Origin: an uncultured Spirochaetales bacterium | GTDB lineage: Bacteria; Spirochaetota; Spirochaetia; Sphaerochaetales; Sphaerochaetaceae | Direction of reading: 5' to 3' | NCBI GenBank assembly: GCA_949297785.1 | Contig: CASFTW010000002.1 | Span: 62,001-126,000 of the forward strand | DNA: 64,000 nucleotides | In this document: one piece after another, positions 42,458-46,350 of the stretch | How positions within the stretch are numbered: the first letter of the stretch is position 1 | How the letters are laid out: each line of letters opens with the position of its first letter | Translations under genes and position numbers: made by a program | The notes under the pieces: model-generated | Told to the model about the DNA's origin: nothing | Seen by the model: only the letters and a program-made list of their open reading frames with translations | Databases searched by the model: none

Positions 42458-42910
42458 ATGAGAAATTTTCTTGAATTGCTTATGTGTGTATTGCTTGCGT
42501 TTGTCCTGCTTTCCAGCTGTCAGAGCAGTGAAAGCGCCGTTGATATGCAGCCGGATGAAGCCATGACCGCTGAATCAGTTCCTGCTGGGAATGCTGAGCC
42601 TGTACTGCCGGTAATTGAAGGTACAGTTACTGCAAATGGAATGACGCTCAGTTATGAGGCGTCAAACGGAAAAGCGGTGGTGTATTATCCTGAAGACGTT
42701 CCAGCAGCAGTCGTGAACGCATTCTTTGCATATTCATTCAGCAAGAGTCCGGCTCTTCTTGCCCAGACCTTCTTCACAATAAAGGAGCCCGGGGTGGTGG
42801 AGCTGACATTCTCATCTGCGGTTCCCGCTGCAACTTCACAGGCGCTTGTCAATGTTCTGGCATTGAATCTCGATGATTTTTCACAGAATTTCCTTCCATA
42901 CTATATGTGA
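42458..42910 (+). CDS. Lipoprotein with one divergent copy of the GYTLSYEA domain
   Basis: 150-residue predicted lipoprotein. Signal peptide with lipobox LLSSC, cysteine at position 21. After a short acidic linker, residues 55-150 form one copy of a domain shared with the next two genes: GMTLSYEASNGKAVVYYP, AVVNAFFAYSF, then a VVELTFSSAVPAATSQALVN helix. This copy is the most divergent. No known family was recognised. GGAGG precedes the ATG by five bases, and a TAGAAT box lies at 42434-42439. Confidence 0.75.
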   Translation: MRNFLELLMCVLLAFVLLSSCQSSESAVDMQPDEAMTAESVPAGNAEPVLPVIEGTVTANGMTLSYEASNGKAVVYYPEDVPAAVVNAFFAYSFSKSPALLAQTFFTIKEPGVVELTFSSAVPAATSQALVNVLALNLDDFSQNFLPYYM

Positions 42911-42960
42911 TGACACATCTGTGTATTCAGTAAAGAAAAACACGAGATGCATGCATGTGG

Positions 42961-42995
42961 AAAAGCGGAAAAAATGTGTCTTCTGACGCTTTTTT
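42961..42995 (+). terminator. Possible terminator after the first lipoprotein gene
   Basis: AAAAGCG (42961-42967) / CGCTTTT (42987-42993) with a long 19-base loop, then more Ts. The large loop lowers confidence. Confidence 0.45.
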
Positions 42996-43018
42996 CATTA
43001 TCTATTTGCTGCAAGTTG

Positions 43019-43027
43019 TGCTATGAT
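43019..43027 (+). promoter_or_regulatory. Extended -10 promoter of the second lipoprotein gene
   Basis: TGCTATGAT, an extended -10 element with no clear -35. The leader then holds AGATT/AATCT and AGGAGGAATAACAA before the GTG start. Confidence 0.45.
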
Positions 43028-43084
43028 TGATTCAATAGATTTTAAGAATCTGGCTTGTTCTTGAAAAATTAGGAGGAATAACAA

Positions 43085-43564
43085 GTGAAGAATTTAACTA
43101 AGTCGGTTTCCATCGTCTTAATGGCAGCTGTGCTTTCACTGGCTCTTATCGGATGTCAGAGCACTGCTCCTGTTGATTCGGTTCCGGAGATTGTAGTGCC
43201 GGTACCTGCTCCTGCAGCAGAAGCCCCTGCTCCTGCACCGGTAGTTGAGGAGGAGGTCGCAGCTCCTGAAGTTGCAAAAGAGACAGGCACTCTCTCATTC
43301 TATGGTTATACACTCAGCTATGAGGCTGTACCAGGTGAGGCAAAGGTGACATATCCTGCAATCATCACTGAAGCTGATGTTGATGCATTCTTTGCATATG
43401 CATTCGGCAACCACAGTGATATTCTCTCCGGTGTCTACTATGATGTGACAGGTCCCGGTGAAATGGTTGTGACATTCCCTGAGTCTGTTACAGTAGCCGA
43501 TGCTGCAGCTGTTGTCGATCTTCTTGCAGGCGATCTTGAAACTTTCGCAGCTCCGTATCTTTAA
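43085..43564 (+). CDS. Lipoprotein with one GYTLSYEA domain
   Basis: 159-residue predicted lipoprotein, GTG start at 43085 behind AGGAGG. The signal peptide ends in ALIGC with the lipid cysteine at 24. An Ala-Pro-Glu linker (residues 30-65) leads to the domain (67-159): FYGYTLSYEAVPGEAKVTYP, DVDAFFAYAFGNHSDILSG, VYYDVTGPGEMVVTFP, and a final helix ADAAAVVDLLAGDLETF. The first 60 residues and the ribosome site are nearly identical to the next gene, showing a recent tandem duplication. Function unknown; probably anchored in the outer or inner membrane facing the periplasm. Confidence 0.8.
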   Translation: MKNLTKSVSIVLMAAVLSLALIGCQSTAPVDSVPEIVVPVPAPAAEAPAPAPVVEEEVAAPEVAKETGTLSFYGYTLSYEAVPGEAKVTYPAIITEADVDAFFAYAFGNHSDILSGVYYDVTGPGEMVVTFPESVTVADAAAVVDLLAGDLETFAAPYL

Positions 43565-43613
43565 TCTGATACAATGAATATCCTGGAAAACAGGATCTAT
43601 AGAAGAGTAAATG

Positions 43614-43640
43614 CCCCGTTCATCTGAGACGGGGTTTCTT
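43614..43640 (+). terminator. Terminator of the second lipoprotein gene
   Basis: CCCCGT (43614-43619) / ACGGGG (43629-43634), 9-base loop, then TTTCTTATTTTT. A second hairpin, ATCCTG/CAGGAT, sits just upstream near 43580-43596. Confidence 0.75.
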
Positions 43641-43877
43641 ATTTTTGCAGATTTTTTCACCTTTGATGTTGCAGCAGCCGGCCGGCTGTGAGAAACACTG
43701 ATAATGCATAATTACTCATCCGGATATCCTGAAAGCATGGTTTTTGAAACAATTTTGTAAAAATTTGAAAAAATATGGTTTTTGTGCTCCTTTTTTTGTT
43801 ACCTGTTTGATATAAGGCATGTTATTATTAGCACGACGGATTTTTAATCTGCGTCTGAAAAAAGAGGAGGATAACAA
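43641..43877 (+). promoter_or_regulatory. Gap before the third lipoprotein gene with extended -10 promoter
   Basis: The 313 bases between the two genes hold the terminator above, an AT-rich stretch, and TGTTATTAT (43820-43828), an extended -10 like that of the preceding paralogue. AGGAGGATAACAA precedes the GTG. No other gene is seen. Confidence 0.45.
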
Positions 43878-46298
43878 GTGAAGCGTTTTATTAACTCACT
43901 TTCCATCATTTTAATGGCAGCCGTGCTTTCACTGGCACTTGTCGGATGTCAGAGCACCGCTCCTGTTGATTCTGTTCCACAGATAGAAGTACCGGTACCC
44001 GCTCCTGCAGCAGAAGCTCCGGCCCCGGCTCCGGAAGTGGAGGAAGAAGCGGAAACACCGGCTGCTGTTGCACAAGAGAGTACACCTGTTGTCATGAAGG
44101 AAGCAGGTTCCCTCTCATTCTACGGCTATACACTCAGCTATGAGGCTGTTCCCGGCAAGGCTGAAATCACATACCCTTCATTCATCACGGAAGATGAGGT
44201 TAATGCTTTCTTTGCTTATGCCGCAAAGAATCATGGAAACCTGCTTTCAGGTGTTTACTATGATGTGACAGGCGCTGGCAGCATGAGTGTGACTTTCCCG
44301 GAGAATGTCACGGTTGCAGATGCAAGTGCGGTTGTGGATATTCTTTCTGCCGATCTTGCCGCTTTTGTGGCTGATTATCTCGGTATTGAGGAAGAAGAAG
44401 TTGTCATGACTGTCGAGAACCAGGTTGTTTCCATTCCTGCAAAGGAGACAGGTTCTCTCTCATATTACGGTTATACGCTCAGCTATGAAGCCGTACCCGG
44501 CAAGGCAGTGGTCTCGTATCCTTCATTCATTACGGAAGATGAGATTGATGCATTCTTCTCATATGCTGCTGAAAACCATGGTGATCTGCTTTCAGGAGTC
44601 TATTATGATGTGACCGGTGAGGGACAGATGACCATCACATTCCCCGAGGATGTAACGGTCGCTGATGCAGGAGCAGTCGTCAATGTTCTCTCAGCGGATC
44701 TGTCAGCTTTCATCTCTGATTACCTTGCGCCTGAAGAAGAACCTGTTGCTGCTGTTGAACTTCCAGCCCGGAAACCGATGCCGGCAGGTAAAGAGTATCC
44801 ATATGGAGTCACAGGTATCGTGAAGTCCGAGGGTGATGATACATTCAACCTTTACGTCGTTCATACAAATGATGTCCATGCAAGAATTACGGAAGGCGAG
44901 GACGGTTCGATGGGGTATGCAAAGCTCTCGACACTTCTCAAAATGGGCCGCTCCGTGACGGACAACATTCTTGTTCTTGATGCCGGTGACGTCCTTCATG
45001 GAACAAATCTTGCAAACGTGTTTGAAGGCGAGTCTGTCGGTATTCTTCTTACAATGCTCGGCTATGATGCCGTAAGTCCCGGCAACCATGACTTCAATTA
45101 CGGAGCCGCACAGCTTGAGGAACTTGCTGCACTCAGCGATGCTATGGGAGGTCCCAAGGTTCTTGCAGCCAACATTGTTGACGGGAAGGGAAATTTCGTC
45201 TTCCAGCCTTATCAGGTGTATGAGTTCAACGGTTTTGACGTAGTGGTCATCGGACTCTCCACACCGGATACAAAGACAAAGTCGCATCCGAAGAATACTG
45301 AAGGTCTCACATTCTGGGATGATTCCTATCTCCAGTATGCCCAGAGCGCAATTGATCTTGCTCATGAGATCGGCGATTACGTTATAGTCCTTGGCCATAT
45401 GGGTCTCGGTGAGGACGGAACGGTAGGAATGACTTCCGAAGATATCTGCACATACATTGACGGCATCGACCTTTTTGTCGACGGTCACAGTCATACTGTT
45501 CTTGAGAACGGTCTTGAAGTCAATGATTCCCTCATTGTTTCAACCGGTCAGTACCTCAACAACGTAGGTGTTGTTGAAATCCAGGTTGCTGACGGTCAGG
45601 CTGAAGGAGAGACAGCTATTCTCATTCCTGCATCTGCCGTAATCGATCCTTCGACAAGCCAGCTTGCAAAGAGTCTCGGCATCACGAAGGTTGCTGATGA
45701 TCCTGAAGTCACGGCATATGTTGACAAGCTCAATGCGGAACTTGATGAGAGATTCAGCGAAGTCGTGGCAAATGTCCCGGTATTCCTTGACGGAGAGAGG
45801 GCAAACGTCAGAACAAAGCAGACAAATCTTTCACGTCTTATCTGTGAGGCTCTGACTGCTGAAACCGGTTCTGATTTCACCATCATCAACGGAGGCGGAA
45901 TCAGGGCTTCCATTGAAGCCGGAGATGTCACTCTCGGTGATATCAACAATGTTCTTCCGTTCACGAATACCATTGCCGTATGTGAAATGACAGGCGAGCA
46001 GGTTCTGGAAGCTCTTGAATTCGGCTATTCGCTTATTCCGGAGCAGAACGGAGGTTTTGCACAGAGTGATCTCAAAGTTGTTTACAGCCGCTTTGCAGAA
46101 CCGGGAAGCAGAATACGCCGTGTCCTTCTTCCGGACGGTACTCCGCTTGACACTTCTGCAACATACCTTGTGACAACCAACGACTTCATGGCAGCCGGCG
46201 GTGACGGTTTCACGATGTTCGGTGATGTTGTCCAGGAAGGAGGTCTTCTCAACGAAGCTTTCGCAGATTACCTTGCACAGGTATATCCTGCAGAATAA
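43878..46298 (+). CDS. Lipoprotein: two GYTLSYEA domains fused to a UshA-type 5'-nucleotidase
   Basis: 806-residue surface or periplasmic enzyme, GTG start behind AGGAGG. Lipobox ALVGC, cysteine 24; Ala/Pro/Glu linker; domain copies at about 76-168 and 191-283; then a metallophosphatase from about 325. That part has LYVVHTNDVHAR (metal DxH), VLDAGDVLHG, SPGNHDFNYG, VILGHMG and VDGHSHT, and the C-terminal nucleotide-binding domain has INGGGIRASIEAG and LPFTNTIAV. UshA relatives hydrolyse extracellular nucleotides to nucleosides for uptake. The extra domains are absent from standard UshA, suggesting binding to cell wall, surface or ligand. It ends in its own terminator. Confidence 0.88.
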   Translation: MKRFINSLSIILMAAVLSLALVGCQSTAPVDSVPQIEVPVPAPAAEAPAPAPEVEEEAETPAAVAQESTPVVMKEAGSLSFYGYTLSYEAVPGKAEITYPSFITEDEVNAFFAYAAKNHGNLLSGVYYDVTGAGSMSVTFPENVTVADASAVVDILSADLAAFVADYLGIEEEEVVMTVENQVVSIPAKETGSLSYYGYTLSYEAVPGKAVVSYPSFITEDEIDAFFSYAAENHGDLLSGVYYDVTGEGQMTITFPEDVTVADAGAVVNVLSADLSAFISDYLAPEEEPVAAVELPARKPMPAGKEYPYGVTGIVKSEGDDTFNLYVVHTNDVHARITEGEDGSMGYAKLSTLLKMGRSVTDNILVLDAGDVLHGTNLANVFEGESVGILLTMLGYDAVSPGNHDFNYGAAQLEELAALSDAMGGPKVLAANIVDGKGNFVFQPYQVYEFNGFDVVVIGLSTPDTKTKSHPKNTEGLTFWDDSYLQYAQSAIDLAHEIGDYVIVLGHMGLGEDGTVGMTSEDICTYIDGIDLFVDGHSHTVLENGLEVNDSLIVSTGQYLNNVGVVEIQVADGQAEGETAILIPASAVIDPSTSQLAKSLGITKVADDPEVTAYVDKLNAELDERFSEVVANVPVFLDGERANVRTKQTNLSRLICEALTAETGSDFTIINGGGIRASIEAGDVTLGDINNVLPFTNTIAVCEMTGEQVLEALEFGYSLIPEQNGGFAQSDLKVVYSRFAEPGSRIRRVLLPDGTPLDTSATYLVTTNDFMAAGGDGFTMFGDVVQEGGLLNEAFADYLAQVYPAE
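44103..44726 (+). repeat. Tandem domain repeat inside the nucleotidase gene
   Basis: Two copies of about 279 bases at 44103-44381 and 44448-44726, clearly similar at DNA level (for example around ATACACTCAGCTATGA and its partner). Single related copies lie at 43283-43561 and, weaker, at 42620-42907. Confidence 0.8.
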
Positions 46299-46319
46299 CT
46301 GATACATCATTGCATGATG

Positions 46320-46350
46320 AGCTCCTGCCGTGAAAAGCGGGAGCTTTTGT
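46320..46350 (+). terminator. Terminator of the nucleotidase gene
   Basis: AGCTCCTGC (46320-46328) / GCGGGAGCT (46337-46345), one G-T pair, 8-base loop, then a T-rich tract. Confidence 0.8.

Follow-up and report, generated by a model that had tools for sequence, protein, structure and literature searches.

What does a protein domain of about 90 residues do when it recurs in consecutive lipoprotein genes and, in the last of them, sits in front of an enzyme? The question is raised by positions 42458-46298 of a 64,000-nucleotide stretch of DNA from an uncultured Spirochaetales bacterium (the window; contig CASFTW010000002.1 of assembly GCA_949297785.1), where three consecutive lipoprotein open reading frames (ORFs) on the + strand share the domain in 1, 1 and 2 copies. 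A preliminary description made from the letters of the window had reported this arrangement, which ORFs, profile matches and alignment bear out, and had tied the role of the domain to nucleotide scavenging. We find that the domain is not limited to the array, which refines that account. It is a real, previously undescribed module of the cell envelope, restricted in the genomes sampled to one family of mostly spherical gut spirochaetes; the nucleotidase is one of its many partners, and from these partners we infer its function.

The shared domain and its distribution

Isolated domain copies, like lipoproteins 1 and 2 themselves, have no match above the curated cut-off in Pfam-A or NCBIfam, and we did not find the domain described in the literature. 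The earlier statement that it has no named family therefore stands, with no match to a known family to refute it. When a profile built from 68 copies (A1; its extended form is A2) was run against PDB, one partial match was returned, to 49 residues of the streptococcal adhesin 6vs7, with a whole-sequence E-value of 5.9e-6 that is summed over short stretches, the best of which has an i-Evalue of 0.043, and with about half of the domain covered. The module resembles the Rib and atypical Rib (aRib) repeats (6vs7, PF18938) in a short helix and a 'GTVTITYP' strand. It differs from them in that the resemblance covers half of the module and lies below the Pfam cut-off (aRib, 17.9 bits over 20 residues against a cut-off of 27), which falls short of a full-length Rib or aRib domain, and in that lineage and envelope differ, Rib repeats being found in Gram-positive adhesins.

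AlphaFold, given a single copy and the A1 alignment, predicts a confident β-β-β-α-β-β-α fold (mean predicted local distance difference test score, pLDDT, of 86.5). Foldseek found nothing at E <= 0.001 with this model, and the top VIA-align matches (Z 6.5-8.5) are spread across unrelated folds. The best of them, urea amidolyase 5i8i, aligns over 87 residues with a root-mean-square deviation of 2.7 and a Z of 8.5, to be read against the background of 7-8 that the tool quotes; PH0987 (2phc) reaches Z 6.9. We take the matched regions of 5i8i and 2phc to be KipI-type domains (CT_C_D, PF02682). The module is unlike these, with 14% identity, no Pfam match and a Z barely above background, and KipI-type proteins are cytoplasmic enzymes. 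PF02682 matched none of the domain copies and had no member in the 61 family genomes searched. Structure prediction, which the preliminary description had put forward as a check, thus yields a confident fold, and the novelty that it had envisaged is neither shown nor excluded, with no Foldseek match at this threshold and a best Z of 8.5 near background.

The sequence of the domain is strongly acidic, with a mean net charge of -11 per 91 residues (range -19 to -3, n = 190 copies). The most conserved positions (F38, Y57, P26, Y25, P70, G19, G63 and D90) look structural rather than catalytic, and domain conservation shows no catalytic-type residue pattern. Acidity together with structural conservation speaks against enzymatic activity and in favour of a module that binds or tethers.

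A2 detected the domain at E <= 0.01 in 76 of the 139 genomes that represent the window's family; these carriers belong to 10 of its 22 genera. A sample of the phylum (393 Spirochaetota genomes, on which the restriction to the family was tested; a wider collection was scanned with the whole nucleotidase protein only) gave matches in 21 genomes, all within the window's family apart from 2 borderline cases (E about 5e-4 to 8e-4). In the genomes sampled the domain thus appears confined to one spirochaete family and occurs nowhere else convincingly. A spirochaete-only family on varied proteins had been named as support for the earlier account, and within this sample the restriction and the many partner types described below agree with it. 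The named relatives of the window genome are gut and rumen Spirochaetales known from metagenome-assembled genomes, together with the cultured Bullifex porci. On the placement of the latter in the Sphaerochaetaceae by GTDB-Tk (PMC7738495), we take the 139-genome family to be the Sphaerochaetaceae.

Partner proteins and the proposed function of the module

The domain is found in stand-alone lipoproteins and in a range of larger proteins, in 1 to 10 copies per protein. Nucleotidases carry 1-5 copies in most cases and 10 in one (fetched locus L120). A large barrel protein that ends in F and has a FecR-like N-terminal domain carries up to 5 (L098); the label 'FecR-like' is our reading, Pfam making no such call. 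In the window's own genome a 582-residue FecR-like protein bears 3 divergent copies (L007:3458-5206). Small barrels with an fn3-like start also carry the domain, their Pfam assignment being weak (fn3 narrowly misses its cut-off in L107, and OMP_b-brl is sub-threshold in L112 and L126), as does an N-terminally membrane-anchored coiled-coil protein (L105, L113, L117). In an FKBP isomerase (L114, L115; FKBP E 8e-19) a copy is C-terminal, and a DctM TRAP permease (L058; DctM E 1e-109) has 2 C-terminal copies. All these architectures appear to have in common that the domain lies outside the cytoplasm. The copies of the barrel proteins stand in front of the barrel, and from barrel topology they would therefore lie in the periplasm. 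An origin of the domain in the FecR-barrel protein is unsupported, as that protein has no recognisable copy in Sphaerochaeta or in one subclade. In one genome (G049, L132:2224-3444) a membrane-anchored domain ORF turns, after 35 domain residues, into what by eye is TnpB-type-like transposon sequence, a probable insertion.

We tentatively favour the view that the module is a non-catalytic, acidic envelope tether. One or several copies, carried on a flexible Pro/Ala/Glu-rich linker, would bind a periplasmic ligand common to all carriers and so retain the protein to which they belong, be it barrel, enzyme or lipoprotein, in the periplasm; for the array of the window this would mean that a periplasmic 5'-nucleotidase is kept in position. 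The proposal presumes that the domain binds a ligand at all, that peptidoglycan is what it binds, and that the lipoproteins are on the periplasmic side. It is consistent with the partners, which are unrelated and have only their envelope location in common, and with the predicted structures, which show compact copies and disordered linkers. The most likely ligand is the cell wall with its unusual peptidoglycan, on two grounds: partners are found in both membranes, and the lineage has an odd wall chemistry. Bullifex porci, itself a carrier of the domain (L033), has spherical cells that lack penicillin-binding proteins (PBPs) 1a, 2 and C, and its muropeptides are of the Orn-Gly type, with ornithine-glycine in the stem peptides (PMC7738495). 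The window's own genome (G000, 95% complete) gives 1 transpeptidase (PF00905) match, and the OmpA-type anchor PF00691 is missing in it, as in 137 of 138 family genomes. Like the OmpA C-terminal domain (PF00691), SPOR and LysM, the module is small, repeated and mobile among lipoproteins, barrels and membrane proteins. Unlike them it is joined to no known family by sequence and its wall binding is putative; the copies give no PF00691 match.

Several observations weigh against wall tethering. By sequence the domain matches none of the known wall-binding families, and acidic domains are atypical of wall binders. Nearly half of the family genomes, including Sphaerochaeta, are without the domain yet also without OmpA-type anchors, and Sphaerochaeta lacks the same PBPs as Bullifex porci (PMC7738495), so that presence of the domain does not track wall chemistry. 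The idea that the domain replaces OmpA, as judged by complementary distribution, was rejected, because OmpA is missing throughout the family, both in carriers of the domain and in the rest.

Among the other explanations, a pure stalk or spacer, which would keep the attached enzyme or barrel a set distance away from the membrane and have no specific ligand, would account for the free variation in copy number (1-10) between relatives, for linkers that are long, of low complexity and disordered, and for the lack of a conserved catalytic pattern. We consider it somewhat unlikely, since many proteins have a single copy, some copies are C-terminal (DctM, FKBP) with nothing there to space, and the polar or aromatic residues Y9, Y46, E42 and D90 appear conserved beyond what a spacer would need. 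If instead the domains bound one another, they would cross-link barrels, lipoproteins and inner-membrane proteins. Architectures of both membranes do coexist in one genome, and copies can move between loci, as seen in one genome where nucleotidase and barrel-protein copies have recently been exchanged and are 96% identical in DNA. Only 16 of 164 copies, however, are closer to a copy of another architecture in their own genome, so no genome-wide co-adaptation is seen, and all copies are strongly acidic, which disfavours contact of like with like unless cations intervene; we regard self-association as unlikely, though like the spacer it is still a live rival. The same count indicates that copies usually evolve with their host protein, and concerted evolution of all copies in each genome was rejected as a general rule despite the one clear recent transfer.

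A role in the service of the nucleotidase, by binding a nucleotide or other substrate or by presenting the enzyme outside the cell, is the reading that the preliminary description had offered. Nucleotidases are indeed the commonest partner in the fetched loci (82 of 190 copies), and the neighbourhood of lipoprotein and nucleotidase recurs in 2 genera. The link to nucleotide scavenging is nevertheless not supported, as most architectures carry no nucleotide enzyme and most partner types are unconnected with nucleotides, and as Sphaerochaeta nucleotidases and Clostridia homologues manage with no domain copies; we regard this reading as very unlikely. The other part of the earlier idea, anchoring or presentation of whatever protein carries the domain, would fit. 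Equally little weight falls on a surface-exposed, fast-diversifying antigen or adhesin module analogous to the Gram-positive Rib-type repeats. Repeat expansion and the weak 6vs7 and sub-threshold aRib matches would suit such a role, but the former match spans only half of the domain, with a poor best stretch, and barrel topology places copies in the periplasm. The periplasmic tether remains the reading that we prefer.

The tandem array and its nucleotidase

The features of the array are collected in Table 1. Each of the three proteins begins with a signal peptide and a lipobox with its Cys (LLSSC, ALIGC and ALVGC, read from the sequence), as in bacterial lipoproteins. A search of the window's own genome with protein 2 recovered every array copy at E 5e-15 or better, the diverged lipoprotein 1 at E 5e-15, and one further, unlinked match on contig 8. 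Growth of the array by duplication, as proposed in the preliminary description for genes 2 and 3, is well supported by their comparison, since the 5' parts of the two genes (ribosome-binding site, start, signal peptide and linker) have a mean column identity of 83% and the domains of the two proteins are 67-71% identical. Gene 1 is a diverged copy seen only in the closest relatives, and related genomes show stages of the array in which the nucleotidase has 0, 1 or 2 lipoproteins upstream. Terminator-like hairpins lie downstream of gene 2 and of gene 3, with a weak one downstream of gene 1, so the three genes are a tandem array and not clearly a single operon. In a relative (L009:6560-7830) lipoprotein 2 and the nucleotidase are both disrupted in the same part of the domain, where their sequences are identical, likely through assembly collapse of near-identical copies.

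Table 1. Features of the array, with positions in the window
Feature	Position	Strand	Description and basis
Lipoprotein 1	42458..42910	+	150 aa; signal peptide, short linker, 1 diverged domain copy; ORF
Domain copy, lipoprotein 1	42614..42895	+	Profile match and alignment
Weak terminator-like hairpin 3' of gene 1	42976..42989	+	Consensus scan
Lipoprotein 2	43085..43564	+	159 aa, GTG start; signal peptide, Pro/Ala/Glu-rich linker, 1 domain copy; ORF
Domain copy, lipoprotein 2	43280..43561	+	Profile match and alignment
Terminator-like hairpin with T-rich tail, 3' of gene 2	43613..43635	+	Consensus scan
Lipoprotein 3, 2 domain copies and UshA-type 5'-nucleotidase	43878..46298	+	806 aa; ORF, Pfam, predicted structure
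Nucleotidase protein, domain copy 1	44100..44384	+	Profile match; β-β-β-α-β-β-α in full-length model
Nucleotidase protein, domain copy 2 (modelled alone)	44445..44729	+	Profile match; pLDDT 86.5
Metallophosphoesterase domain PF00149	44856..45497	+	Pfam E 2.6e-10; NDVH, DAGD, GNHD and GHSH motifs
5'-Nucleotidase C-terminal domain PF02872	45765..46223	+	Pfam E 8.8e-39
Terminator-like hairpin with T-rich tail, 3' of gene 3	46319..46346	+	Consensus scan

The third protein is apparently an intact UshA-type 5'-nucleotidase, as judged from its translation. Both Pfam domains of this type score above their cut-offs (PF00149, 41.5 bits against 21.5; PF02872, 133.6 bits against 23.6), in agreement with the fusion originally described, and the key residues of its four metal-site motifs (NDVH, DAGD, GNHD, GHSH) are invariant in 20 homologues. 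It shares with UshA and CD73-type 5'-nucleotidases both domains, the metal-site motifs and an intact C-terminal NGGGIR region, together with a lipoprotein signal peptide. It differs from UshA in its 2 N-terminal copies of the unrelated acidic domain, of which relatives have up to 10. In the predicted structure of the mature protein both copies show the same order of strands and helices; disorder is predicted for the first 49 residues and for the linker in front of the enzyme.

Three nucleotidases of the Sphaerochaeta type (L029, L031, L032) have, in place of the domain, an N-terminal nucleotidase-like half whose metal ligands by eye are seemingly lost. A lipoprotein of another genome (G023, L135:1867-3018) consists of 1 domain copy and the 5'-nucleotidase C-terminal domain alone, with the metallophosphoesterase part missing.

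A frameshift candidate in the FecR-like barrel gene

The most surprising by-product of following the domain is a candidate frameshift in the gene of the FecR-like barrel protein. In the window's own genome (L007:3446-7656, contig 8) the FecR-like ORF ends KKN-stop on nine A, and an 821-codon barrel ORF then follows in the -1 frame with no start codon in its first 60 codons. Over 747 residues this barrel is 24% identical to the homologous barrel of proteins of another genus in which the gene is in frame (E 2e-33; profile E 9e-62), and in-frame fusions of FecR-like domain and barrel occur in other relatives. The FecR-like domain profile finds 1 copy each in 120 of the 139 family genomes. The split is present in 21 fetched loci, in every one of which the barrel occupies the -1 frame. 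An exact A9 stands just before the 0-frame stop in 16 of them (L007, L131, L133, L137, L149, L156 and L158-L167), and the remaining 5 (L129, L146, L147, L148, L150) have one in-phase slippery heptamer, C_CCT_TTC, in the overlap. All 21 split genomes thus have a slippery heptamer in the right phase within the frame overlap, conserved across species, and in the barrel tree A9 occurs in 2 deeply separated genera. The 479 kb of fetched loci hold 20 runs of at least 9 A or T, of which by our count 17 are the slip site; the 64-kb window has no such run.

These features indicate that programmed frameshifting or transcriptional slippage probably occurs at the gene. Separate initiation of the barrel is unlikely, as the second ORF has no ATG, GTG or TTG in its first 60 codons in most loci, any that occur are internal, and inspection by eye showed nothing like a signal peptide. 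A pseudogene was rejected with about 800 codons open in 21 genomes, as was phase variation, the tract having exactly nine A and the same frame in 16 of 16 split genes. As in dnaX-type frameshifting or slippage, in-phase X_XXY_YYZ heptamers or A9 lie at the 0/-1 overlap. Unlike dnaX, the host gene encodes an outer-membrane barrel protein and no consistent downstream stimulator was found, folding z-scores downstream being near 0 in most loci and strong in only a few, L131 and L133 among them. In E. coli, C_CC.U_UU.C gives a high level of shifting; the list of motifs for genome searches in the same source includes A_AA.A_AA.A and A_AA.A_AA.C, the latter being called inefficient (PMC4066793). The evidence favours ribosomal frameshifting for the C_CCT_TTC class; for the A9 class transcriptional slippage is equally possible. 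In one relative (G065, L180), an in-frame gene keeps A9 at the junction near codon 393, and slippage either way would lead to a stop after 4 or 8 codons. The Thermus dnaX gene (described in PMC5009743) is the comparison case, with the long product in frame and the slipped products truncated. We did not find this frameshift described in the literature. In other loci (L142-L145, L155, L157 and L168-L172) a mutL-like ORF directly follows the FecR-like gene with no barrel between, the barrel there being lost or moved.

Combining the frameshift with the tether gives a more far-reaching version of the latter, which we consider unlikely. The domain would define a new class of wall anchor in spherical spirochaetes without OmpA-type anchors and most PBPs, its acidic residues would contact the Orn-Gly peptidoglycan, and the conserved -1 frameshift would, in part of the family, set the ratio of soluble periplasmic to barrel-anchored forms of the FecR-like carrier.

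If confirmed, the frameshift would bring an outer-membrane protein into the small set of bacterial cellular genes known to use frameshifting, and the FecR-barrel gene offers natural controls in its in-frame relatives and its two types of slip site. A profile of the domain would annotate many hypothetical proteins in the genomes of gut spirochaetes. These spirochaetes gave up helical shape and much of the machinery of wall building; a family-specific module carried by barrels, lipoproteins, transporters and enzymes provides a concrete, expressible handle on how their envelope coheres.

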